Below, one piece after another: positions 3,201-60,700 of a DNA stretch of 64,000 nt. The DNA comes from Clytia hemisphaerica (Eukaryota > Cnidaria > Hydrozoa > Leptothecata > Clytiidae), in NCBI GenBank assembly GCA_902728285.1, contig CACVBU010000820.1, positions 62,001-126,000 of the forward strand, given 5' to 3'. Position 1 is the first letter of the stretch. Each line of letters begins with the position of its first letter. The translations under genes and the position numbers were made by a program. The notes beneath the pieces were generated by a model. The model was not told where the DNA came from. It searched no databases and saw nothing but the letters and a program-made list of their open reading frames with translations.

Positions 3201-6200
3201 CAAAGATGATATCTGCTCCTATAATCCATGTTAATGGTGATTCACCAGAGGTAAGTTTGTCATCCAAGGCATTCTCAAACAAAAAGTGAAGACAAAAACA
3301 AAATTTTGTTCATCCTTGACGTTTCGATACTTCTTGTATCATGATCACAAGCAAATGTTAGCTTGAAAGCAAAAAAAAAACGTGTTAATAAATCAAAATT
3401 TCAAAATCACATCTAGCAATTATAGGTCATAAAATTTTCATAATTGAACGCATACATATACTTATTCAAAAAAGCTCTAGAGGATAAGAAGATACCGTTT
3501 TATTTAAATCAGGTTTCAAATCCCTAATGATTGAAGATTCTTTTATATAAAGCTCTTCATCAGTTTTTCCTTTTTCGTAAACTTTCATGTTCTCTAGGGA
3601 CACGTCGTGCCCAGTTCTAAAAAGATGTCTCGTTACAGCAGTTGGTCTTTCAATATTTCGATGCTCCTTGTACCGTGTCGCAATATGTCGTTTTGTTTTC
3701 CCAATATAGTAAGACTCACAATAACATTTGCTTGTGATCATGATACAAGAAGTATCGAAACGTCAAGGATGAACAAAATTTTGTTTTTTGTCTTCACTTT
3801 TTTTTGAGAATAATCTGGCCCAGAAGAAAATTTTTTCAAGTATTACTACGAAGATATGGGCATGATATGGTCATACAATTTCGAAATGTTGAACGCATAC
3901 AAAAGAAAATTGATAAAGTACAACTTGATGTTGACTTTTTGGAGAAATGTTTAAAGTTTGAAGTCATTCCAAAGTTTTGATTTTTCAAACTTTCAAATCA
4001 TCGTCTACGTAACAGCAAGACTTATCGGGAAATACAGTTGAGACTTTTACGTGAAGAGATTAACCACCACAAGAAAGAGTTGCGTAATCTTCTTCCAAAA
4101 CGAGATGAAATTATTGGATTCATTGAACAGAATGTTATTTGGTATGATTTTAATGTCATTCGAACAAAATTGAGATCGATTTGCAACATTGAAATATCTG
4201 CGGTTCGAAAACGACATGAGAAAAAGTTTCGTGATCTTTCCAAGAATAGGATCGTTCAAGATACTTTTGACCCAGACAAACTGATTTATAACTTCACCGA
4301 CCGAGTTCTTACTCAGGCTCAGACATCCGCTTTAATGAAAGGATTGAGATTTGGCATTCCTCCATTAAAAGCAGACACCTATGGCGTTTTTACAGCGTTT
4401 GAATTATGTTACAAGGGCCTTAAATCTTTAAACATGAACACTGCTACTTACAGTCCAGACCGTTACAAGAATAAATTCGCTGAGTTGGCTTATGCTTACT
4501 GTCAACGATATGATAAACGAACTGAAGTTAATCTAACTGACATTGAAATGAAAGGCTTAATTGAATTGAGTAAAGACAAAAGTATTGTCGTTGCAAAAGC
4601 TGATAAAGGGAAGAGCGTTGTTTTGTTACGGAAATCTGACTATGTCACTGAACTAGAGACTTTGTTAGCAGATAAAACCAAATTCAAGCCACTTGATAAA
4701 GATCCAACCATCAAACGCGAAGAAAAGCTGATCCGTTGTCTTCTGAAACTGCTAAATGAAAAGAAAATTACGAATAAGTTCTACAAAGACGTTCGTCCAA
4801 ATGGTTCCCAGCCAGCAAGATTATATGGTCTTGCTAAAGTTCATAAAAACAACCATCCATTACGACCAATCTGCTCGTCGGTTAACTCTTTCAATTATAA
4901 ACTATCTTCCGAAATTGCTAAGATTCTTTCACCATATGCTACGAATCAATACACAATACGAAATACGTTCGCTTTTGTCAATGAACTCCAAGGAATGAAT
5001 TCTACATCTTGTCATATCGCAAGCTTTGATGTCTCAAGTTTGTTTACGTCTATTCCTCTTGATGCAACCATAACCATAGCTTTGGATTACCTTTAAACGC
5101 CACTACTGTCAGTGGTTTATCAAGAAACGAATTCAAGTCCCTTTTGGATATGGCAACTAAAGAAACCAACTTCATTTTCAATGGTAAATGTTACGATCAA
5201 ATTGACGGGGTTGCTATGGGTTCACCATTAGCACCTGTATTAGCTAATATATTCATGAGAAATTTCGAGGAAAAGGCTTTCGAGATTTGTCCCGGTGATA
5301 TTGAAAAACCATCCTTTTATCGACGTTATGTTGATGATAGTTTTCTATTGTTCAAAAATCAATCACACGTTACACCATTTTTTGATTATTTGAACACTCG
5401 CCATAAAAACATTGTGTTCACCAAAGAAGAAGAATCGACATCAGAGGATAGTTTCCCCTTCCTTGATACAAAGATTGTCAAAGAAGATGAGAAATTCTTA
5501 ACAAGTACCTACTACAAACCTACTCATACTGGAGTTTATACAAATTGGTATAGTTTTACTCCAAGGAAATACAAAATCAATTTAATCAAGAATTTGCTAA
5601 GTAGGGCATGGAAGATTTGTTCCAACGAACGTCTATTTCTCAGTGACTGGGAAGTTATCAAACGAACATTGGTTAAGAATAAGTATCCTGAAAAACTACT
5701 GATAGCAATGTGCAAGAATTTTGTACAAAAAATGAAGTCTAGTGATGAAAATGAAAGTGTCGCCACTGTTGCAAAGAAAGAAGTGAAACTGTATTTACCT
5801 TTTCATGGTAAATTATCTGATGTTCTTCATAAGCAGCTAATTTCGTTATTAGCTGAGACCTACCCACAAGTTGACCTAAAGATCGTTTTCCGCACTACGT
5901 TTCGACTCTCAAATCTGTTTACTTTCAAAGATAAAATACCTCTAAGGTTACGTTCATTTGTTGTGTACGGAGTGCACTGTACAGATTGTGAGTCTTACTA
6001 TATTGGGAAAACAAAACGACATATTGCGACACGGTACAAGGAGCATCGAAATATTGAAAGACCAACTGCTGTAACGAGACATCTTTTTAGAACTGGGCAC
6101 GACGTGTCCCTAGAGAACATGAAAGTTTACGAAAAAGGAAAAACTGATGAAGAGCTTTATATAAAAGAATCTTTAATCATTAGGGATTTGAAACCTGATT

Positions 6201-9200
6201 TAAATAAAACGGTATCTTCTTATCCTCTAGAGCTTTTTTGAATAAGTATATGTATGCGTTCAATTATGAAAATTTTATGACCTATAATTGCTAGATGTGA
6301 TTTTGAAATTTTGATTTATTAACACGTTTTTTGCTTGTAAGCTAACATTTGCTTGTGATCATGATACAAGAAGTATCGAAACGTCAAGGATGAACAAAAT
6401 TTTGTTTTTTGTCTTCACTTTTTTTTTTTGAGAATAATCTGGCCCAGAAGAAAATTTTTATCCAAGGCATTATCATAAGGCTTTGGAACATTTTTACCAT
6501 ATTTAAATCCAATGGAGTCAGTAGAAAAGTTTTCTCAGTAAGAAAAATGTTCTGAAATCCATATTATTGGTAATCCACTTAAAATTCTCATACCCACTAC
6601 ACTATTAGCGTAGATACTCACTGGATTTTGAGCTATAAATAATAGAATCCCCCTTCTCCCCTTCACCCCTTCATTCTATTATAAATGCTTGCTAAATGGT
6701 TCTAGCAGGGTCGCTGAGACAGTGGGTAGTACACAACAAGATTGCTGTTTGCTTAATACTAGTTCTTTTGAAAGCTTTCCTTTTACATTGTTCCTTCCGT
6801 TGACTCTAATGGCTTTGACACAAGATGGAGGAATCCACACTCTTTACCTTACTTCACTATATTTCAGGATGTGGCAAAAGTGACAAAGTTGGCTGTAGAT
6901 TACCGAAACAAATTCAAGAAAGATGTTGTTATAAATATGCTTTGCTTCCGTAGATGGTCAGTATCTATTTTAAATCATCTTGATAAATAATCTTCTCTCG
7001 AAAAGGTAGATGACAGCTTTTTGAATATCCGAGGAAAATAAATTTGTCAAGTGTTTCGGTTTCTTTCATGGAAAAGGCAAACTGAATTTTAATGAAACAA
7101 GTAATAATTTTTCTATAGGGGACACAATGAACTTGACGATCCGACTTTTACAAACCCAGCAATGTATGACGTCATTCATCAACGAGAGTCAGTTCCGGAC
7201 CTCTACAAAAAGAAACTGATCCAAGATGGCGTTGTTACGGAAACCGAGATCGAAAGCATCGAGAGTGAATATTATGCTTTACTTGATGAACAATTGAAAG
7301 ACGCGGATCGTCAGGTTGAACCAGCCTGGAAACCTTTTGAAGATAATTGGAAGGGAATACAACAGGCTAGTCATCAATCAGCGTCCACATGGGACACAGG
7401 TACTTTTAAACGATATTTAGTTAGTCTTTTTATAATAAATAGGCTCTCAAAACTGAACTATGAATTAGATTTCTGAGAAAGGGAAATTTCAAATAAAGCG
7501 GTCAAGATTACCCCTCCATCCGAATGATATCGTTTATTATTCTAGTGTAGAAATTATACATTCGTAGGATCACTTCTCATAACCTACATAGCTAAGCCCG
7601 TATTCACAAGGCTAAAACACACGGCTTAGACAAGATTCTTTATATTTACGGATTTTAAGTTTGCTTTGTAATACTGTTATTCAGTAACAACTAACCATCA
7701 AATTTATCCTAGTGACTGAATCAAACTAGCCTAGATTTCTAGGCTACGCCACTCTTGAGCTGAGGCAATTCGTGAAATCATTGAAAGCTGACTGAAAACT
7801 AACTATAATTTTTATTTCTAGGTTGTGACATTGACTTGTTGAAGTTTGTTGGAGCACGTTCTACGTGTTTTCCTGATCAATTCAACATTCACCAGCATTT
7901 AGAGAAAACATTCTGTGAAGCTCGAATGAAGAAAATCGAATCTGGAGAAAATATTGATTGGGCCACAGCTGAAGCATTAGCCATTGGAAGTCTTCTCATG
8001 CAAGGTGAATAAGTAAATGATTCTTTCAAACAAATTAGTAAAATAAACAATAATATTGCAGCTTTTTAAACCTTTACAGTTAGGGAAACCATCCAGGATC
8101 CTGCCATTCTATCAGCCAGCAAAAACTAAATGACACTTGTAAACTTAAGTTTCTTACCATTTTCCATCGAAAACAATCGAAAACATTACTATACTTTCCA
8201 AAGCTGGAGACCAAAGCAAATGATCTTTCTTGATAAGGGCGCCCTTTTGGATCTATTGTTAACTCATTTAAAATGGTGGATAAAGTTATGGAATGATGAA
8301 GGCACCCACTGCTTTGAGGGTGGTGACGCCAAAACGTCCAATATGATCAGCCAACAGAAGGCGAGTTTGATGCCGCGCGAGTTACGTCATGCACTCCACC
8401 GTAGCGAAAGCGCGAACGACATTTCACAATTATAAGAATATCTTATGTGCTTAATTCTATTTGACTTTGAGAGCCTCGTAGAAGATGAAGAAGTAAAAAG
8501 ATAAAAAATGCGCTGGTTATTTTTTTTTAAATAGGTGTGTTCTATCATTGTTGAAAGTTGGAGAAATTTCTACCGACGCAGAAATTTTTTACAGCCAATT
8601 AAAGGCACAGTCTGCTTATAATGATTATGTTTACTATATCTTCTAGGCAAAAAACGCTAAAAAAAGACGCAAACGTAATTTTTTTATGAATGTGGTTATA
8701 ATTTTTTTGATATCGGCCGTGTACAGGAACTCGCCAAATGTTCCTAACTGCTTTATGACATATCTTGGACATATCCTTCACTCAAGTTTCTTATTACACT
8801 ATTTCTATAAACACATAGAGAAGTGGGAAATTCCACGATGATAAATATGTTTAATTCATAAACATTAGTTCATTTTTAATCTATGTTACCAAGGTAACAA
8901 TCTTAGCTCATTCATAGATTTTTGACAGCATCTTTATATTGGGTTGGTTCCTTATTTCCCACTTCTCTATGCCAAACCACAAGTAGATCTTACCTCGAAT
9001 ATGTTTTGGTGTCATCTCCTCGTGAAATGAGCCATAAGTGTGGTCCGTTGGCGGATTGGTTATTATCAAGTATTCTCTTCGGAGACGACCTTAACCCTGG
9101 GTTAGTTAAGGAACGCCCTCAGCCTCGGTTAGTTGAGAAGGTTCGGGAGCACCTAAAGCCCTGCCCGATCCCAAGCCCCTCGGGGATTGACCACACCCTA

Positions 9201-45700: not shown

Positions 45701-48700
45701 CAAAATTACTTTTAGATCCATCTTACAATACTTTACAGAGAGAGCACAGGAAAAAAATCTTCAAATCTCAATGTTTGGGAAGTACGTACTTCCGGATCCG
45801 GAAAATGATGTATTTCCCAAACCAGCCTCAAGCTTGGGATTGTGCAGCTTGTACGTAGGTTGTGAATACCAATATCACAAAGCTTAAAACCAGATCCGGA
45901 ATAGGGTTGGGTAACTTGGTTTCCCAAACTTGTTAAAGTTTATTTCACATTACGGAAAATGGCTATTAACAATGCCAAACACAAAGATTGAGTTTGTGAT
46001 TCTGTATAACACAATTGGGAAACTCAAATACCCAAATATGATATGTATTTGATAAATTCTTAAATGTATTCTATCATTCGTGAGCATTGGCTCGATAGCT
46101 CCCATTCGTTCTGTCATGTACTTGCGCTACTTTGAGAATCCCGGCACTTTGTCACGGCAGCGGAACAACGACGTGGTACCGATTGAACGACCGCACGGCG
46201 ACTGAAGATTCCACTGAGCCCTTGCGACGCAAGTCTATTGCGAACGAACGAGGCCGCCCTCTTGGGACGCCTCACCTTTAGCGTTGTGTTACACACTGAT
46301 CGAATACATCCTTGTAAAGTTATGATTTGAATACAATCTGAACAGTTTTGACCCAATAACTACTTGTGGTTTTTCTTACGCATGCGTGGTACAAGTTTGG
46401 GAAATTGATTTCCACAAAATGTGAAATCGATATTTCCCAATCTAAACTTTCTAGGTGAAATAATTTTTTATTTTTAGTATTTGAGGTTTTAGAAAGAAAA
46501 TTTTAATGTTTTAAAAGGGTTTAATTAAAATTAAACCCAAAATCACAAGTTTGGGAAATTGCGAATCCCAAAATTATCTAATTTTTAGTTTTCCAAGACC
46601 AAGTTTTTGATTTTATAACAAAGTCTAGATCTTTATTTTATTTAGTATTTTCAACACTTTCTCTCCTTGAGATCTCTGATCTTCACCATATATATATAGT
46701 CTAGAAGTATAAAACCTTCAACTACTAAAAATGGAAACAATAAAGACAAAAACCCACAAAACAAAAAGACAATACAAATACAACAAAAATCTAGAATGAA
46801 CATTCACAGAAAATCAATCAGGTTGGAGAAGAAAAGGAAAATATGATGACATGGAAATCCGTCAATGTAAAACTAGTGATCTAAAATGACTTTAAGGAAG
46901 AAAGTAACTCAATATGAGTTAAGATGGAAAGAAGTAACTCAATATGAGTCAAGAAATATATCAAAAAAACACATTATCTGTTCCTCAGTTTTCGACCTAC
47001 ACAGGATTTCGGCCATTTGTGAAAATATCCTCCTATATGATGGAAATAGGGTTGTGTAGGTAGGCCAAGCAGTGTTATCTAGACACCACCACAGATAAAA
47101 AGATGTAAAAAGATGTGTTTAGTGAAAGTATGAAACGCGCGCAAATATTAAATAAACTAAAACTTAAACTCCACGGAACCAGCCGAAGAAACTAAAATAA
47201 CAATGAAAAAAGAAGTGTACTTTCTACTAGACAAAGTTGCCACACCTTTGACACGTTTCTGCCACAACGTTGTAGAAAGCATACTAGATGGGAAGGAACT
47301 GGGATTGGATCGCCACTATCTAACCCTGTGGCTCTCACACACATTTTACAGTTCAAAGAAGAAGATGGAAAGAGTGGGAAAAGAATGAGAATTTAAAAAA
47401 GTCGGACTATAACCCGGTTCGAAGCCCCGTACACCGTGACCGCTCACCGCAAGAGCTGGCGAACGAGTGAATCTTGAGAGAGTTGAAATCTTGAAAATTC
47501 TGAAAAATGACGAACTATAACCCGTCGAAGACTGTAATCTAACTTTGCGTTTTCAGCACCTTGACATCGCATTCTTTGTATAAAAACTTTGGCTTTAACT
47601 TTCAAGTCCTCGAAAAGTAACGTAGAACGAGCAATCCTGAGAAGTTCACCAACAAAAGAAGAATAAAAAATCGATTCTGGCAAGTTGCTACCTTTATGTG
47701 GCATTCGGACTATGGAAAAAGGAAATGCATCCCGTTTATCAAACAACTTATAAATAAATATCCCGTCTTTGATGGTAATATCCAGGTTTAAAAAAGAAGC
47801 ATGATTACCAGAGTGCTCAATTTTGAGTTCAAGCTCATCTGGATAGATATCTCTATACACAGACTGAAACAAGTTACCGTCATTGATAGCACACAAATCA
47901 TCAATGAATCTTTTGGTCGAATGAAAATGGCGAGCCTTAACCTTATTTTCCTCAATGATTCTGCTCATATACCTTTGTTCGTATTGGTAGAGGAAAAGAT
48001 TAGTCCAAAATGGCGCCGGATCGATTCCCATGGGAATCCCGATCACTTGACACATAACAATATCACCTGCATTGAAAAAACAATTTTTTATCAGATGTTT
48101 CATAGCAGTTTTCAAAGAATTCTGTGTAAAAGTCACAGAAGATTTGGGTTTTGTTTTTGACCAATACGCTTTATCATTTTTAGAAATAGCGATAAACTTG
48201 CAGTTACCTGCATCAAATACAAAATCAATGACCTCTGATAGTTCTTTAATCAGTTTGTCATGAGGAATCTTTGTGTACAATGTACTAAAGTCAAAGGTGG
48301 AAATAGATTTGGCGTTTTTTCTTTTTATTGATTCGGTTGAGTGAATCTAGTACTGGATCACCACAATTTTGTAGTACCCAAAATTTATTATAATTGCTCA
48401 AAACTTTGCTTTTTTATGGAAATTTTCAACTTGTCTGTAAACAAGCTTAAAAACTAGACTGACAGATCTAGAAATCAGTTTGGTGGAACAATGTTTTGAA
48501 GCGATAATGAAACGTTTACCAGTAGGCGTCTTGTGTTTCTTTGGAGTCCAATAGATACATGGAAGATCCAAGTCCTTCTCAGAAACAGCAAGACCAAAAC
48601 GTTTAGAAAAACGAACATTTTCATTCACCATTTCTGCTTTATTCTGATTAACTCTAATGTATGTTTCATTTCCTGCACCCAAAATCCCAATCTCCTTCAA

Positions 48701-51700
48701 AATTACTTCAACATAGAAACGTTTACAAATAAATGCAACGTTATTAGCAGCTTTATCAATGGGGACAATAACAAAATTAGTGTGTAAAACATTCAAATAA
48801 TCAACAACATCTTGTCTTTTGAGCACAGAGCTCACTTTATTGTACCTGATCTTCTTTTTCAAAAATTTTATCTTTTTATCCACCTGTTTTAACACTTCAA
48901 CCTTCCATTGAAGAAAGTTTTCGTCAGTCTCATTAATTTTGGCTGAAGTTTTATTCACAAAACTATCCAGACCACTAGAAATAACATCTCTGCATTTATT
49001 CCAATTGATATTTCGAGGTTCACGATAATTTGGTCCCTTGGATATCAATTTTCGTAAATGATTATTTTTAATGAAACTTAAATCTCCGGTCATGATATGA
49101 CCATGGTCTAGATCAATAAAAGGAGAATCGTGACACTCACAAGATGGAAGGTTGGTGCCAAAAGTTTCTAAATCTGCTGTATTGATGGAATTTACAGTTT
49201 CTTTATAATTAAAGATTTTATTTCTAATCGTAGGAGTTAAAGAGTAAACAATCGATGGTGGATCTTTTTGAAGTTTTTCAGGAAGTTTGGAATTCACACA
49301 AGGCTTGCGAAGAATATTTTTGAGCTGAATAAACTCAAGACCTTTATTGTGGAAATAAATAGGAAGGATGTGGGAAGGAGATTTTTTAACATTAGCTTTA
49401 TCAATTTTCATAGTCTTCGTAAGAAAAGTATCGATCAATAATTCATACCATCTTTTCAGATGGCTTTCGCAAGAAAAAAGTGAAGTGCTAGCTTGTTCTG
49501 CAAGTTTTCGTAAATTTGACTGTCGAAGCCTATCAAACAAAATGCGACATTTCTTGGAACGTTCTTCCGGAGAAAAAGAAAAAAATGGAATGAACAAGAG
49601 AATCTAGATCAGAGATCCTAGCCTTAACTTTGGAGCGGTAACGGTGCTCAACAAACTTAGTGCCATGTCTGGGAAGAGGTGGAAATAATTTCCCAGCCGG
49701 AATGTCCTTGTTCATAGATTTTACTCGCTCATTTAAACCATATGGATAAATAGATCGTAAAGTTTTTATCCAATGATCTTCTCTTTCTAGTCGAAGTTTT
49801 AACATTGCAGGATCAATTTTCCCATTTAAATAACTATCACCGGGCAAAAGTTCAAGAATCTGGATGGTAAAAGTAGCACCGGGACACACATTCTTATAGT
49901 GATCAATGGAAATTTCACAACCTGATTTTCCTTTTCTGTGAATATTCATTCTAAGATTAAGAGACACAGCACTTTCACCAACATATTGGACAAAACAAGA
50001 CGAACACTGAAGAACATAAACATAATTTTGCACTTTGCAATTAATGTTATCCACATCAACATCAAGTGCATGGACTCTGCCAGTCATATTTGATTTTACA
50101 AAGTTATTTTTAAGTAAGGCGGGACAGGTTTTGCAGTCTGAACGACATTTGCGAACCGCTGTCCTGGGTCTGTTACTTCCCATCAGCCGATGAAACAGGA
50201 CGACCTCCTACTGCCCTTGTGTTTGGAACACTGTTATCATCGACACCTTCTACAAGAGACTGTTGAGAAGTATCCGATTGATGGAGAGAGACCCTCCTAG
50301 GGGTATTAGCCCTAGGGGAGGCTGCACGGTCCAGGGGCTGCCTGGACCGTGCTTTGGACCTAGTATTTACCATGAAGTCGGCTAAGAAATTTTTTGTTTT
50401 TAGAAAGAAAAGTGGAAAGGAAATGGATACTCACTACCTCAGGTAGCAACGACAACCAGAATTACAAGGGGGAAATCCTCACGCTAGCAATCCCAATTAT
50501 CAATATATATATAGTCTAGAAGTATAAAACCTTCAACTACTAAAAATGGAAACAATAAAGACAAAAACCCACAAAACAAAAAGACAATACAAATACAACA
50601 AAAATCTAGAATGAACATTCACAGAAAATCAATCAGGTTGGAGAAGAAAAGGAAAATATGATGACATGGAAATCCGTCAATGTAAAACTAGTGATCTAAA
50701 ATGACTTTAAGGAAGAAAGTAACTCAATATGAGTTAAGATGGAAAGAAGTAACTCAATATGAGTCAAGAAATATATCAAAAAAACACATTATCTGTTCCT
50801 CAGTTTTCGACCTACACAGGATTTCGGCCATTTGTGAAAATATCCTCCTATATGATGGAAATAGGGTTGTGTAACTACTCAAAATGGAAACAATAAATAC
50901 AAAAACCCACAAAACAAAAAGACAATACAAATACAACAAAACGGCATTACAATATATATATATATCACAAGCTTGGGAACAGCATTATTCCAAACCTAGT
51001 TGGTTGTTTTAGCTTTAACTTTGTTGTATAAGTTTTCCACATTGTGATTTTGGTTTTCCCAAGGCATGTCTAATTTAACTTAAACTCAAATGCCAAAGCA
51101 TTAAGTGTATATATTTCCGCGTGTACTATATTTTCGCGTGTACTTAATTTCTTCAATTCAGCATTGCGGACGAAGTAAAACTCAGAATAAAAACATACTG
51201 GTTTAAAATATTTCGCTCTCTCTTAGAGCATCTTCAGTTTTTTTTAATAACAAAGACGTTTAACAATTATATTTAACGACGCTAGAACGGCATTACAATG
51301 ACTTCTTCAGTTTTTGACGTCACGGAACATCTGGTACACTTCTTTCGCGTATACGTGGCAGTCTTTGTTGATACCTGATTGAGCCAGAGTTTGGAGTGTG
51401 CACATCCATTTATCTTCGGCTCGTTCTCTTTCTGCGGAGGATGAAAAGTCACTTTCTAGGATCATCACCTCAAGGTCAGCAAAGGAGTGGTCGCGATGGA
51501 AATGTTCTGCCAACTCTGAATTTTTCGGTCTCTTTCCAGCGGTGCTTTGAAAAACGCGTTGACAAGGCTTCTCCTGTGTGACCAACGTACAACTTGTCAT
51601 GGATCTTGCATCTGGCTGCATACACAACGTTCTTCGTTTTGCAGCTACCACCATTGGGTGCACGTTTAGTGATACCATTGTGAGTGATTTCTGACTGGGT

Positions 51701-54700
51701 GACAATGTTCGGGCATAGCTTGCATTTACCACACGGTTTCGTGGTGTTTTGACGTGGTGGTCTTTCCAAGATATAATTTCGCACGATTTTGTTGGCGATT
51801 GTTTTTCGGCGGCGGAAGGCGACTGTTGGAGTTGAAGGGAAAACGGTCGATAAGGTGATGTCGTTTTTGACGATGTTGAAGTTTCGACGAAGAAGTGATG
51901 ATAGGTGTCTGAGAGCTGGATGCCATGTGCAGACGAAGATGGATTGTTGATCTTGTTTATCTTTTTCTTTTGAACGAAAGAGAGATTCCCGACTGCTCTT
52001 CAGGACGTCTTTGTACGCGTTTTCAACAACATCGTGTCTGTACCCTCTTTTCAGAAAGTACTAAAGGAGTTGTTTGCCATGGTTGATGTAGTCAGCTACA
52101 TTCGTACAAATTCGACGGATTCTGATGAATTGTCCCTTCGGGATGTTTCTGATGACATGGTTTGGATGACAAGATTTGGCATTGAAGTATAAGTGTGCAT
52201 CTGTTGCTTTGGAATACACGCTTGTCTGGATGGTGCTGTCACGAAAACGAACCTCGACGTCCAGGAAATTTACGGAGTCAGTTGATTGATGCGTCTCGTA
52301 TTGAATGGTTGATTTCATTTTGCGGCTTTTCGAAAAATTATTGCAAAAATCGATAAACTGATTCAGTGACTCGTTGCCATGGGTCCAGATGAAGAAGATA
52401 TCGTCGATATAGCAGTACCAAACGAGGGGTCTGAGCTTGGTGAGTTCGTAATATTCGTCAAGCATTTTCGTCTCTAATGATGCCATGAAGAGGTTTGCGT
52501 AGTTTGGAGCCATTGGAGTACCCATCGCGGTTCCTTTGATTTGGTGGTAGATGTTGCACCCAAATCGGAATACGTTTGACCGTAGTACCAGAAGTATCAG
52601 CTTTTTTAGATAAGATGAGCTGATCGATTTCTTGTTGCGTTGTTCCAGATGATCAAAGCAGGCATTTGCTCCTTCTTCGTGATCGATGTTGGTGTACAGT
52701 GAAGCAACATCCATCGTAACGAGTATGGTGTTCGAAGGAAGCGATGGAAGATCAGCTAATCTTACAAGGAAGTCTTTTGTGTCGCGAATGTAAGAATTCG
52801 TTTTTTGCGCTTGGTATTTCAGGAAGCCGTCAAGGAATTCTGAGAGTCGGTTACTGCAGGATGAGAAGCCGGAGACAATCGGTCTTAGAGGCGGGAATTT
52901 CGAAAAGTTTTTGTGTAATTTTGGCAAGCCATAAAATACTGGTGTTCGTGGATTTGATAAATGTTCAGTTAATACGATGTGTTCTTTATCGGTGATTTTG
53001 GATTTCGATTTAAGATTGTCAATCTCCTTTCGTATGGTGTCTGCGTAATTCTGATTTGAATCAGTATCAAGCTGTTCATAGAAATGTTTATTCTCGAGTT
53101 GATCATTGCAGGCTACGATGTAGTCAGTCCTGTTCATCACGACAATTTTCCCACCTTTATCTGCTTTTTGAACGATGATGTTGCGGTCCCTGGAGAGTTT
53201 TTCAAGAGAATGTTGCTCTTCCCTTGTGATGTTGCTTTTCGGCCGTTTGGAATCATCAGCAAGCAGCTTCACAATATCCGACTTGATACAGGAAAGATAG
53301 TTCTCGAGATTCGGGCATTCACTATCATCGACTGGATCATAGTATGGATTGCGGTACGTTGATTTCATTTGGCAGCGTTCGGTCTCTTCACACGCATTCT
53401 CGGGGTTGGTAGACTTTTCGTCATGTTCATCTACCAAGTTTCGAAATTGATATCTCAATCGTTGTTTTCGGCAATACGCGTGTACGTCATCCAGCAGCTG
53501 TTCAGGATCTGGTGATGGTGACGATGGACAGAAAATGAGCCCCCTTTCCAGCAATGATAGTTCGGCAGTAGAAAGTTTGTGGCTTGACAGATTGTGGACG
53601 ATTTCAGATGTTTGTGTACGTGTTGTATTGTCGTTCGATTTTCTCGGCACTTGTCGGACAGCTTGATCTGTTGACGGAAGCACAAAACGATTTGAAAGTT
53701 TTAAATCTGCTTGAATGACTGTTTTTTCTCTGATGCGTTGTGAACTTCTCGGCATTTTCCATTATTTTTATTATTTTTATTATTATTGGCATTGATCCAT
53801 GACAAGTTGTACGTTGGTCACACAGGAGAAGCCTTGTCAACGCGTTTTTCAAAGCACCGCTACGACATTGGAAAGAGACCGAAAAATTCAGAGTTGGCAG
53901 AACATTTCCATCGCGACCACTCCTTTGCTGACCTTGAGGTGATGATCCTAGAAAGTGAATTTTCATCCTCCGCAGAAAGAGAACGAGCCGAAGATAAATG
54001 GATGTGCAGACGGATACGCGAAAGAAGTGTACCAGATGTTCCGTGACGTCAAAAACTGAAGAAGTCATTGTAATGCCGTTCTAGCGTCGTTAAATATAAT
54101 TGTTAAACGTCTTTGTTATTCAAAAAAACTTAAGATGCTCTAAGAGAGAGCGAAATATTTTAAACCAGTATGTTTTTATTCTGAGTGTACTTAATTTCGC
54201 GAGTTTTTAGGCAAAATCTCATCTTGAGAAAATAGTACTGTTTAAACTTTTCAAAAACGCAAAATCGCGAAATTAAATACCCGAGAAAAGAGAACGATTT
54301 TTAAAGGGAAAAGTTATATTTTGCTACAATTTCGATACTATTTTTGCACCTGATATGTTGTGTTGTGTTTCGAGCAAAATTGGTCTTTTTCTTGTTTAAC
54401 ATTTTTCTTTAAAAATATCAAATAGAGTGAATCGCAAAATGTAAAAGACATACGAAAAATTCCAGAAAGTGGTAATCGCGAAATTTAAAGTACTTGCGAA
54501 ATTTAGTAATCGCAAAAAATATAGTACCCGAGAAAATATGTACAACACTTAAGATAATAAGCATATTCTATGTCTGAATACTTTGAAAGCTTAAGCATAC
54601 ACGACCCTGACCAAGGAGCAGACACTAACTTATAAAAAGCGACAGCTCAAAAATCGACAATTATTGTTCAATATCCGATCCTGAAAGACCATATTTTACG

Positions 54701-57700
54701 GAAAGTAATCAAAGCTATCAAAGTTATTTCATTACGAATGTTAAAGCCAAGTAATAAAAGACATTTTATTCACGAAAAGTAAACTAAAGAAGAAAGTATC
54801 GGGAACGGAAAATATGAACACTAGGATTGAATCAAGAACACATTTCAGTTTAATTACATCTATTAATAGTTTGATACTTTGTATTAGTAATTAGTAACCC
54901 TAAGATCCACTAAGTAAATGGTTAAATCTTCATCTCATGCAAACCACAAATTAAGAGATTCTAAAAGATTCATTTTATTAGACAGCTTTCATTTCATATC
55001 TCTGCAGTTTCCTTCTGGTATTACTACTTCGGTGGCTCAGATGTGCCAATACATTGCTGATGAAGTTCAACACGCCAGCCAGTAAAGCAAACTCCAGCAT
55101 CACTTTATAAAATCGGGTCAGTAAAATATTCCCTTCAACCGTCGTCTTATCAAAGTAACCTGTCGAGCTTAGCAACCAGATTGCACTGACTGGTAACCAA
55201 CATAGAACAAAAATAAAGACCAGAGCTCCTAGAACCACCAAGATGTGTCTGCGATGTCGAATTCGTACTTGGTTGGTTTCCACTTGGTTTTTCGTACAAC
55301 ATAAATTACAAATAGTCATTATGTATGCGATGGACATGAATACGAGGGGTAAATAGAAACCAGCTAGAAAAGAAACGACGGCAAACCATCCGAAGAACTG
55401 TTCGCCAATCGGATATGTTCTTGAACAATAAGGGTGTGGTGCGAACCATTTCAATGAAAAGAGATTGGGAATGAATAAGAAGAAGGAAAGCACCCAAAAA
55501 CCGATGATTGAACGACGGGCTTTCTTTAAAGTATATGTGAATTTTCGCAAAGGATGTTTGATGATTTGATACCTTGTGTACGACATGTAGCACAAGATAT
55601 ACACACTCGTGAAGGCGGCAATGAAGAAAATAGTAATACCATCTTTCAACGTGCAAAAAAGATAGTTTTCAACATTTGAAGCATTTTGTAGGACTTGTCG
55701 GACGTCAAGAAAAGCATACGGTATGAAACTAATGTATTGAACGATATTCGAAACACATAGGTGCACCACGCAATAATTGAAGTGGGTTTTCACCTTTTTA
55801 CGTTGGATGTAAAACACAATCATGGCGGTATTCGAGAGCGATCCAAACACCATAATAGCCGCCGTGGTAGCATTGTAAATGACTGTTTCTTGTGGAGTGA
55901 AAAATTCCACCAAACCAGTTGTCTTATTACTCGAATTATGCATTGCCGCCTTGTTTCACTCATAGATCCTTATCTTTTAATAGAAAATGGGAATTGAAAT
56001 ATCATATCGATGTTTGATCACTGGGTTAGAAGATATCAAACTTTTGCGATTTAATCAACTGGAAAGTTTGAGAGAGAATAATACAAAGGTGTTAAGATAA
56101 GGAAGCGAAAACCAAAATTTTACAATAAAAAAAATACCACGAACAAAGAAAAAATATTTCCTCCCATGACCGTTTTCACAACAAAAGAATGATTAAATTG
56201 ATATAAATATCAGTTTTCATGTCGACTTAGTCAAACTGGCCGGTAATTGATAATATGCTATTTTCATTTTTCATTAAAAGTTTAAATTTAGCTAACTTTT
56301 TCCTAATCGAATGAACTTTCCCGTCGAAGGAAGAAGTGTACAAAAGAAAACTTGTCTATGAAAGCTATATCATGTAAGAGAAAGTATATCACACAACTAA
56401 GAAGAGAAAGGTTGGATTGAAAAAAAGTGAACAGTCCAACATTAGCACCCAGAAAATAAGCTTCCATTAGAATGAACATCAAAAACAAGCAAAAATTAAA
56501 CTGAAGGTTAAAAAACCGATTGATTTCTTAATCTCAAAATGCGAATGAAAAAATAGGTTGAATCAGGTTGAATTTCGTATTTGTGAACTGTGAGGCGCTA
56601 ATTTTTTTTTTTTTTTTTTTTTTAACGACATAATCAAAACCAGTCCAAATAGTTCATAGCAGACGTCGCTGACTTCGTATCCTTTATCAATATCGAAAGT
56701 GAAGTGAAAGGGGAGCTCCTCAAGCCCCTCTTGAAAATGGATATTGAATTTATATTAAGTGGCATCACAGGAAAAAGTCTTTAAATCCCAGGCCTGGAAA
56801 ATGACGATTTCCCAGGCATGGGTTTTCCGAATTTCAGGGTGTAAAATGCGCTTTTCCAGAAAAAAAATTTACCCCCACTGTGTTAAGGATATTGATTTTT
56901 CGAAGTATCGAACCCCCCTGGATATCCTACTTTATTAGTAAAGACCCCCTAGATATCCACTCTTAAAAATATGCACAACCCTTTCTTATAGGATGTTTAC
57001 CCCTGGATATCGTATTTTTTACTTGAAAAGACACTTTACCCCCTGGATATCCGCTCCCTCGGAGATACAGGGCGATTCAAAAAAAACCGCACCCCTAGAA
57101 TTTTTGACGTAACTTTTTTTATCTTTATTTTATCGCCATGAAATCTTCATACCCTAGTAGATTTGAAACCTGCATGTGCGATTTGAGGTTTATAGCTCAG
57201 ATATTTCTTAAAATAATTATGACAGTTTGAAGAAAAAGTACGGTTTTTAGGAATGAACAAACCCTTTCTTTTCTGACGTCAAAAAAGAAAATACTATTCT
57301 TATGATCGGAGCATAAGAGTGCGTTTATAGAGTCCCCAGGGATACCCTGAAAGAATCCACAATGACAGAGAGGTACTGTAAGCCAATATATTTAAGTAAG
57401 TCCAGGAAAAATCAAGATTTTGGGCCAAAAAGACCAAATTTTGTACTCTAGCGAAAGTGGGTGGAAACACCTTAACGGCGATTTTTACTGATTATATAAT
57501 GATCTGGAAGGAGGCAGGTGTTCAAAACCAAAACATTCTAGATAAATAAAATTTCAAAAACATTATAATGTTTAATTTATGAGAATCGCATGTGAAATAA
57601 AGTAGGAATAAGCCGCGGTTTTTTTAATCACCCTGTATTTAACCCCCTGGATATTCACTTTTGAACAAAAATCGTTAACACCCTGGACATCCGATATCCT

Positions 57701-60700
57701 CAACAGGGGGTGGGGGGGGGGGCACGGACAATTTCTGAAAAAGCCCTATAACGATTTCTCACGCCTGGCTTTTCCAAATTTTGTGAGCATTGGCTCGATA
57801 GATCCCATCCGTTCTGTCATGTAGTTGCGCTACTTTTAGAACCCCGGCACTTTTGTCACAACAGCGGAGCTGCACGTGAGAGTCAACTTAATGACTTCAA
57901 ACCCGTCTCACCGATCCACGGAGCCCATGCGACGTCCATTGCGAACGAATGAGGCCGCCCTTGTGGGACGCCTAACCTTTGTGTTACACACAGACTGAAT
58001 ACACCCATAAGATGCTTTGGTTTACATACACAACTTGAACACTTTCAACTAAATAACCATTTGTGGTTTTAACTTTGCGCATGCGTATATTTTACATCCC
58101 GAGAAATTCCAGGTCTAGGAAATTCCCATTTTTGCATTAAATTTTTCCCAGGGCTGTAAAATGGCCAAAATCAACCCCAAAATTTAATCAAAATATGTAA
58201 TCGTTAAAAAATCTTGGGGTTAAAAAAAATCACACCCCAAAATGGCCATTTCCAAGGCCTGTGATTTTAAGGTTGTTTCCTGTGATATGAAATTACGAGT
58301 AAACAGCAGTGCCGTAGCAACTGGGGGGGGGGGGGCAAGGGGGGGGCTATGCCCCCCAATAATTTTTTCAAAAATGGTTATTTTGCAAAATGCAGAGTTT
58401 TTCTTTTTTAATTTGTCATAATTGGCTTTTAAGTGCATTTTCAAGCAATCTAGAGCTCAAATTTTCAAAATTCCCCCTCTCGGGCCAAACCATGGTTGGC
58501 CTTCGCGGTGTCCCTAAACTTTAGCCCCCTCCCCCCAATATGAAAATGCTTCCTACGGCACTGAACAGGCGATCTTTTAATTAGAAATCTCTGTAAAAAA
58601 ACCAGCAAATTTCTGAGATTGACGGTTCCAAACAACAGACGAAACATTTTTTTCCAAATAACTTAATTCTGAAAACAGTAGCCTTTATCTGGTGATCTAA
58701 TACTTATTATTCCTTGTGGGAGTGTAATTAGACTGACATTTGTGTTGATAATTTGTAGCTGACAGGGAACCAGAGTTTCCAGTCACCTATTGACCACTGT
58801 TAAACCTCTTAAGGGTTTCTTTCGCTAACAATTCGTTACATTTTAATGAAAACCCTTAAAAGGGTTGAAAAAAGCTGGAAAAGTCTGTAAAGTGACTTTT
58901 AAATTTCAAAAACAAAAATAAAAAGTACGAAATTTAATTTATGAATCATCAAACAGAAAATTTGTTGCACCTTGGAAACAGTGTTTATATATGCTTACTC
59001 ATATCTCATTTGTGTGCCATTAGGCTAGGCTAAGCTAGATTAGGCTATATTTAGGCACACCTGGTTTCCATGGCCTCATTTTCAGTATCATGTCTCAGTG
59101 TGAACTCAGTCTATTTAAGGCCTCACTTCAGTCACACCTCAGAGCTACCATTTTGTGTCATATCATGCTGACCGACCATAATGGGGCCATAATGGCATCA
59201 TAACTCATAAGGCTCTAACTTTAAAAGTTATTCAATTTTGTGTCAATGATCAACTTCAACCTCAAGTCAATCATCATAGTAAATTCATTCACAGTATTCT
59301 TATATTGGCTACCTGGTAGGTTTCATCAATCTCGTTTTTGTTTTCAGGCAGCCATTTTGTTTTGTTCTCTCAGTACTCACTGATTAGGGCCTTACCTTGA
59401 CATGATTTGTAGATTATTTCATTTAAGCCTTTATTTTCATTTAAGAAAGAAAGACATTTTATTCACGAAAAGTAAACTAAAGAAGAAAGTATCGGGAACG
59501 GGAAATATGAACACTAGGGTTGAATCAAGAACACATTTCAGTTTAATTACATCTACTAAATAGTTTGATACTTTGTATTAGTAATTAGTAACCCTAGGAT
59601 CCACTAAGTAAATGGTTAAAGCTAAATCTTTATCTTATGCAAACCACAATATAAGAGATTCTAATAGATTCATTTTATTAGGCCGCTCTCATTTCATATC
59701 TCTGCAGTTTCCTTCTGGTGTTACTACTTCGGTGGCTCAGATGTGCCAATACGTTGCTGATGAAGTTCAACACGCCAGCCAGTAAAGCAAACTCCAGCAT
59801 CACTTTATAAAATCGGGTCAGTAAAATGTTCCCTTCAACTGTCGTTTTATCAAAGTAACCTGTCGAGCTTAGCAACCAGATTGCACTAACTGGTAACCAA
59901 CATAGAACAAAAATAAAGACCAGAGCTCCTAGAACCACCAAGATGTGTCTGCGATGTCGAATTCGTACTTGGTTGGTTTCCACTTGGTTTTTCGTACAAC
60001 ATAAATTACAAATAGTCATTATGTATGCGATGGACATAAATACGAGGGGTAAATAGAAACCAGCTAGAAAAGAAACGACGGCAAACCATCCGAAGAACTG
60101 TTCGCCAATCGGATATGTTCTTGAACAATAAGGGTGTGGTGCGAACCATTTCAATGAAAAGAGATTGGGAATGAATAAGAAGAAGGAAAGCACCCAAAAA
60201 CCGATAATTGAACGACGGGCTTTCTTTAAAGTATATGTGAATTTTCGCAAAGGATGCTTGATGATTTGATACCTTGTGTACGACATGTAGCACAAGATAT
60301 ACACACTCGTGAAGGCGGCAATGAAGAAAATAGTAATACCATCTTTCAACATGCAAAAAAGATAGTTTTCAACATTTGAAGCATTTTGTAGGACTTGTCG
60401 GACGTCAAGAAAAGCATACGGTATGAAACTAATGTATTGAACAATATTCGAAACACATAGGTGCACCACGCAATAATTGAAGTGGGTTATCACCTTTTTA
60501 CGTTGGATGTAAAACACAATCATGGCGGTATTCGAGAGCGATCCAAACACCATAATAGCCGCCGTGGTAGCATTGTAAATGACTGTTTCTTGTGGAGTGA
60601 AAAATTCCACCAAACCAGTTGTCTTATTGCTCGAATTATGCATTGCCGCCTTGTCTTCACTCATAGATCCTTATCTTTTAAGAGAAAATGGGAATTGAAA

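Follow-up and report, generated by a model that had tools for sequence, protein, structure and literature searches.

The stretch of DNA described here, hereafter the window, comprises 64 kb of the genome of the hydrozoan Clytia hemisphaerica (contig CACVBU010000820.1, positions 62,001 to 126,000) and contains two Penelope-like elements (PLEs), PLE-1 and PLE-3, which carry five copies of a small hammerhead-type RNA motif. PLE-1 extends over about 3294-6426. Its coding region (4038..6241, plus strand) consists of two open frames (4038-5096 and 5144-6241) and specifies a reverse transcriptase (RT) and a C-terminal GIY-YIG domain. Two 84-nt direct repeats on the plus strand, the upstream (3722..3805) and downstream (6343..6426) pseudo-long terminal repeats (pseudo-LTRs), are 100% identical, and a tail at 3294..3722 (minus strand) forms inverted repeats as a partial inverted copy of the 3' end of PLE-1. 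The protein matches GIY-YIG with E 5.5e-5 and RVT_1 with E 3e-4, the latter below the curated cut-off; with this qualification of the RT match, the RT and GIY-YIG domains, pseudo-LTRs and inverted tail together mark PLE-1 as a Penelope-like element. PLE-3 lies on the minus strand at about 51180-54186 and is counted among these elements from its RT frame (52061..53755, minus strand, located by domain scan; RVT_1 E 5.6e-11) and its inverted tail.

Each copy of the motif has the layout of a minimal type I hammerhead in which the core is followed by one extra T, written below as the insert U10. The PLE-1 motif reads GTGATCA-T-GATAC-AAGAA-GTATC-GAAA-CGTC, with a G3-C8 core pair, stem II GATAC/GTATC and stem III ACGU. 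It is found in the 5' pseudo-LTR (3734..3764, plus strand, with predicted cleavage after C3764) and, in identical form, in the 3' pseudo-LTR (6355..6385, plus strand) and in the inverted 5' tail (3318..3348, minus strand). The PLE-3 motif, at 51207..51237 on the minus strand, reads CTGAAGA-T-GCTCT-AAGAG-AGAGC-GAAA-TATT; it combines C3-G8 and U10 with stem II GCTCT/AGAGC and stem III AUAU, and cleavage is predicted after U17. Its second copy (54129..54159, plus strand) is located in the inverted tail copy and has the core CTTAAGA, in which the change of G5 to T has probably inactivated it. The original prediction, made from the letters of the window, proposed one layout for both elements at three sites; these were recovered together with two unlisted copies (3318-3348 and 54129-54159). 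As copies within one element are not independent, the five represent two families. Judged by the comparisons presented below, we regard the motif as a real, selected hammerhead variant, that is, a minimal PLE hammerhead with an insert and a natural swap of a core pair.

Recognition of the motif against chance

A strict descriptor was used to estimate the frequency of such a motif by chance; it demanded one insert, a Watson-Crick 3/8 pair of any kind, a 5-bp stem II, a 5-nt loop, GAAA, a palindromic stem III and H17 not G. First-order Markov sequence, 3.24 Gb in length and matching the window in its dinucleotides, was scanned on both strands. Seven matches were obtained, corresponding to 0.00014 per 64 kb, or about 0.9 per 417 Mb, the size of the genome searched (951 contigs), which its receptor genes suggest to be an animal's. 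The window gave four matches, all in PLE ends, the fifth copy being excluded by its G5 change. With a looser descriptor, 20 simulated windows gave 5 matches (0.25 each), and the window itself gave those four sites and no others.

A covariance model built from eight PLE motifs provided a separate line of evidence. PLE-1, PLE-3 and two further families introduced below, PLE-B and PLE-C, were left out, and no G3-C8 motif was present in the training set. When both strands of the 64 kb were searched unfiltered, the top five matches were exactly the five window copies: PLE-3 at 51207..51237 (30.4 bits, E 7.5e-5), PLE-3 at 54129..54159 (23.8 bits, E 0.0028) and, tied at ranks 3-5, the three PLE-1 copies (20.1 bits each, E 0.021). 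The sixth match had E 0.5; all these E-values are rough, owing to a short calibration. The hammerhead-type identity of PLE-1 and PLE-3 is thus borne out by a model trained without either.

Standard hammerhead models performed differently. Rfam gave no match in the window at the gathering cut-off and, at a relaxed threshold (E<=10), no hammerhead match across the whole window and none around PLE-1; the best score for any window motif was that of PLE-3 with RF00008 in a 131-base scan (14.4 bits, E 1.3). Genome-wide, RF00163 exceeded its cut-off at none of 74 scored places, out of 48628 candidate places. A hammerhead match at E<=10 was obtained at 0/10 PLE loci versus 4/4 canonical loci, the latter all below the gathering score and, having been picked by RF00163, not an independent control. 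The suggestion that ordinary models could miss the motif was supported, in that Rfam does not report it at gathering scores. Rfam-based counts of genomic hammerheads may be too low, because PLE motifs score below those models.

Covariation and the extra base across PLE families

Two sequences are insufficient to establish covariation, and further families were collected through their proteins. The N-terminal 130 residues of PLE-B (contig C207) served as the query; it retrieved 56 places in the genome, and 33 start regions were examined with a loose descriptor that left the letters at positions 3 and 8 free and permitted 0, 1 or 2 inserted bases. The motif was present upstream of the frame in 13 of them, always with a single insert, T; one other region contained accidental two-insert matches only, and 19 had no intact motif, some being visibly degenerate or cut. 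Grouped by their motif sequences, these 13 represent ten kinds; the kinds were treated as families, and PLE-3 of the window and PLE-C (L152) were added to give a comparison set of twelve. PLE-C was found by a pattern that required the T insert, and its frame resembles that of PLE-B by eye.

The hammerhead core CUGANGA...GAAA...UH is present throughout this set except for the changed 3/8 pair, with the helices in type I order. Standard pairs occupy 60/60 cells formed by the 3/8 pair and four stem II pairs in the twelve motifs (48/48 for stem II alone), and changes on both sides affect 17 cells, compared with 3.5 in shuffles. The covariation score is 0.912, against 0.198 when shuffled and at most 0.236 when slid. 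Because the descriptor required three stem II pairs for most motifs, the pairing of stem II arises partly by selection of the sequences; in the protein-anchored set, no such requirement was placed on stem I, H17, the fourth pair of stem II or the 3/8 pair. H17 is not G in 12/12, stem III is palindromic over 2-5 bp, and, where the longest palindrome is taken as stem III, stem I pairs 2.1/1.1 and 2.2/1.2 form in all twelve motifs, with three and two pair types. The proteins of PLE-B and PLE-1 are 70% identical (246/352), and their fourfold sites agree at only 33/83; the PLE-B motif has G3-C8 with a different, still paired stem II.

These results support a selected hammerhead-type RNA structure and show that stem II differs yet stays paired through compensatory changes across the twelve motifs, as had been claimed from two elements. 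The proposed test on other genomic copies gave a divided outcome. Within families it was uninformative, the copies being near identical (the same 31 nt in 26/29 PLE-1 and 19/25 PLE-3 contexts among the loci examined), and between families it was positive.

The swap of the 3/8 pair between PLE-1 (G-C) and PLE-3 (C-G), also part of the original prediction, belongs to a wider pattern, as a pair is kept in all twelve motifs: C-G in seven, G-C in three, U-A in one and U-G in one, with no mismatch. Genome pattern searches, counted as distinct strings among the first 100 listed places, agree with this. When C or G was allowed at positions 3 and 8, the two letters were complementary in 32 of the 33 listed strings that had a stem at insert 1 (6 C-G and 6 G-C with ACGU as stem III; 20 C-G and one G-G with AUAU). 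When A or T was allowed, 12/79 listed strings had such a stem, versus 2.2 expected, and all 12 were U3-A8, a combination found in only 39/79 overall; G10.1-C11.1 closes 8 of these 12, and the other four may be chance. All G-C cases seen that had a stem at insert 1 belonged to the PLE-1/PLE-B/PLE-C group. The G3-C8 pattern was also matched at 56 loci in viral contigs and rejected there as chance, since one locus (L092) has a 6-bp stem without stem I and the others have stems of at most 3 bp.

The extra base is T in 12/12 PLE motifs, so that the strict hammerhead consensus, in which A9 is followed directly by the 10.1-11.1 pair, does not describe them. Pattern counts alone mislead in this respect: to judge by the matches listed, unrelated repeats were largely responsible for two that exceeded their controls (766 vs 261 and 1420 vs 511), and stems were therefore checked string by string. 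For patterns with T after the core, represented by the first 100 listed of 286 (ACGU) and of 508 (AUAU) places, stems II of at least 4 bp at insert 1 occurred in 12/35 strings vs 0.78 expected and 21/57 vs 1.88 expected, several strings being variants of one family; without an insert, only 1 and 4 strings had such a stem, vs 0.74 and 1.76 expected. With a non-T base after the core, stems without an insert were at chance among the matches listed (2/91 vs 1.39 and 1/81 vs 1.44 expected), and the whole-genome count of the non-T ACGU pattern (141) was close to its control (137). Minimal motifs without an insert are thus not clearly above chance. One family with A at this position (A10) supplies about ten of the 100 places listed for one non-T pattern, and its stem I is also paired at the three loci examined. 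Three of its copies (L188, L189 and L190) have unlike upstream sequences, as though the hammerhead stood at the start of the element. The insert marks PLE motifs, for which it appears to be the rule in this genome; the canonical core at four other loci of the same genome (L148-L151), which include a retrozyme-type tandem repeat (L148), has no insert.

Minimal type I hammerheads in the pseudo-LTRs of PLEs are known (Cervera & De la Pena 2014; Lunse, Weinberg & Breaker 2017), here through the available parts of PMC6155905, PMC7761336 and PMC6466107. The present motifs resemble them in pseudo-LTR location, tandem layout, an absent or very short palindromic stem III and proposed dimer action; in the descriptions given in those parts there is no mention of a U10 insert or of G3-C8. 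The kind of hammerhead itself is not new, and G3-C8 in nature and the U10 rule are variant features. Natural G3-C8 was not found in the literature searched, a search that did not extend to the two most relevant papers on PLE hammerheads (2014, 2017). Natural U3-A8 hammerheads, a case of 3/8 covariation, are described in the accessible text of PMC3088659; U3-A8 is common to those hammerheads and to the PLE motifs here, and G3-C8 is not mentioned in that account. According to the excerpts of PMC11167929, the hammerhead of the Anolis PLE known as PAc likewise lies at the junction of the pseudo-LTR and the open reading frame (ORF), and its C3 and G8 act as a pair: C3G or G8C abolishes activity, and the C3G/G8C double mutant is partly active. 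The G3-C8 of PAc is laboratory-made, its natural pair being C3-G8, whereas that of the PLE-1 group is natural; set against PAc, the hammerheads of PLE-1, PLE-B and PLE-C lie upstream of the AUG.

An extra base at this position also has a precedent. In the part of PMC3705267 available (citing De la Pena & Flores 2001), the plus-strand hammerhead of chrysanthemum chlorotic mottle viroid has one extra nucleotide between A9 and 10.1, and its change from A to U raises the trans-cleaving rate 3-4-fold. The natural base is A in the viroid; in the PLE motifs it is U in twelve and A in one further family. One- or two-base insertions at the border of A9 and stem II are also allowed for in the accessible text of PMC10085705. 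The suggestion that the inserted base defines a variant subclass stands insofar as it is a shared property of PLE motifs, and does not stand as a claim to a kind not previously known. The differing natural core pairs of several PLE families, together with their common U insert, form a natural mutagenesis series for studying the needs and function of the ribozyme.

Proposed cleavage and alternative explanations

We consider it likely that the motif is a pseudo-LTR minimal type I hammerhead with an extra nucleotide, with G3-C8 in the PLE-1 group, whose predicted dimeric cleavage gives unit-length RNA. The motif itself, its pairing, the covariation between families and the place upstream of the frame are the observed part of this explanation. 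A double hammerhead would form from two motifs paired with each other at the palindromic stem III, either within a transcript that carries two tandem copies or with the help of the PLE protein, and this structure would cut after H17. Unit-length RNA would thereby be released from tandem or read-through transcripts, each with a fixed 5' end, which in PLE-1, PLE-B and PLE-C would fall 4-5 nt before the AUG. In all three, the predicted 3' product consists of 4-5 nt followed by the ATG of the frame; in PLE-1, this ATG (3769..3771, plus strand), the probable start of the frame by homology with PLE-B, begins at the 5th nucleotide of the product. At L166 the predicted product starts with ATG, and in the other eight motifs the first ATG, a possible start codon, is found at the 11th to 54th nucleotide; in a PLE-3 array on contig C928, one has to go about 160 nt downstream to reach the first long frame that begins with an ATG. 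That array has five motif copies about 3.83 kb apart, and PLE-B copies are spaced at 2.64 kb; PLE-3 and PLE-B thus occur in the tandem arrangement that the dimer model needs.

A broader proposal, which we offer tentatively and with somewhat poorer than even prospects, is that this lineage has PLE hammerheads of a class of their own, still active and marked by U10, in which C3-G8 is free to become G3-C8 or U3-A8. The cut in the PLE-1 group would set the 5' end just before the AUG, coupling folding with the start of translation, and G3-C8 would be the first natural case of the swap known from laboratory rescue. The available part of the review PMC7761336 calls the in vivo activity and role of PLE hammerheads still a mystery.

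Several observations weigh against an active hammerhead. Stem I pair 2.3/1.3 fails in 3/12 motifs, and with a fixed 2-bp stem III the first, second and third stem I pairs form in only 5, 7 and 5 of 11; the longest-palindrome rule was adopted after that attempt, as AUAU motifs have longer palindromes. The covariation tests count sequences and not evolutionary events, and G3-C8, to judge by its distribution, probably arose once. With flanks included, the minimum-energy folds do not improve on those of shuffled sequences (z 0.03 and 0.31). The PLE-3 fold keeps stem II only; that of PLE-1 keeps stem II and three stem I pairs, but G3 pairs with C17, which would compete with G3-C8, and this pairing lowered our confidence by a small step. 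When the four G3-C8 sequences are folded as dimers, the two copies of the core palindrome UGAUCA pair with each other in competition with stem III, and a stem III mismatch control loses only 0.6 kcal/mol. Finally, in the excerpts of PMC11167929, the Anolis PLE RNA is not cleaved when the protein is absent and shows no reads starting or ending at the site, and hammerhead mutants have no effect on insertion in vitro; the PAc hammerhead cleaves when its protein is present.

The Anolis observations and the weak folds of PLE-1 and PLE-3 would also suit a different role, in which the main reason for keeping the motif would be its use in reverse transcription or packaging, as a structured signal at the pseudo-LTR/ORF junction that binds protein or marks the template, with weak or incidental cleavage. 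The same source reports the use of a template spanning that junction and puts forward the hypothesis that a part within the first 172 nt of the ORF binds protein. A plain binding hairpin, however, would need none of the features kept here (H17 not G, A15.1-U16.1, GAA, a paired 3/8 and a palindromic stem III, of which GAA was required by the descriptor), and we judge this role unlikely, with a real chance of being right. The motifs might otherwise be relics of an ancestral hammerhead that lost its activity, which in PLE-1 would be due to G3-C8 and the inserted U10, and they would have spread as hitchhikers on young master copies. The broken core of one PLE-3 copy in the window and the lack of an intact motif in 19/33 PLE start regions fit such decay, and conservation within families, where copies are near identical, has no bearing on it. 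Between families, the pairs are kept in ten families of the protein-anchored set. PLE-1 and PLE-B, which share so few fourfold sites, yet agree at motif positions 3, 8, 7 and 17, and stem II differs between them but is paired in both; in this comparison the pattern limited positions 3 and 8 to C or G, and other core letters, which it required, were not counted. Decay of this kind appears quite improbable to us. A role of the extra U in translation is more doubtful still: A9-U10-G10.1 spells AUG, and as G10.1 is G in 12/12, a possible start codon is present in every U10 motif compared. The frame from that ATG stops after 10 codons in PLE-1 and 2 codons in PLE-3, on which grounds we rejected it, and the A10 family exists without this ATG; that the U is kept for this reason is very improbable. 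The hammerhead reading with predicted dimeric cleavage remains the one that we prefer.

Further repeats in the window and the genome

Among the canonical loci, L148 (C226:202540-203220) is a tandem array of 300-bp repeats; its type I hammerhead is canonical and falls below the Rfam gathering score, and RF00163 matches with a spacing of 300 bp were also seen on contigs C65, C133 and C508. Type I hammerheads in 300-bp tandem repeats resemble the metazoan non-LTR retrozymes, which carry type I hammerheads as described in the available text of PMC7229834.

At five loci (L158, L161, L163, L164 and L179), the stem I strand GAC or AC directly follows a T-rich stretch whose last letters are TTTAG or TTAG, in the manner of a 3' splice site. 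The PLE-3 units on contig C928 (L042) contain, downstream of the hammerhead, a frame that we take to resemble a SAP domain with a Ulp1-like protease. A third PLE-like element of the window, PLE-2 (46688-51000, in the region of about 46.6-51.1 kb, minus strand), has 300-nt direct repeats and an N-terminal GIY-YIG match just below the cut-off; the loose descriptor found no hammerhead in it. Two duplicated segments of the window, 54757-56282 and 59450-60987, lie 4.7 kb apart, each with an ORF of more than 300 aa and with pieces that are 80-99% alike.

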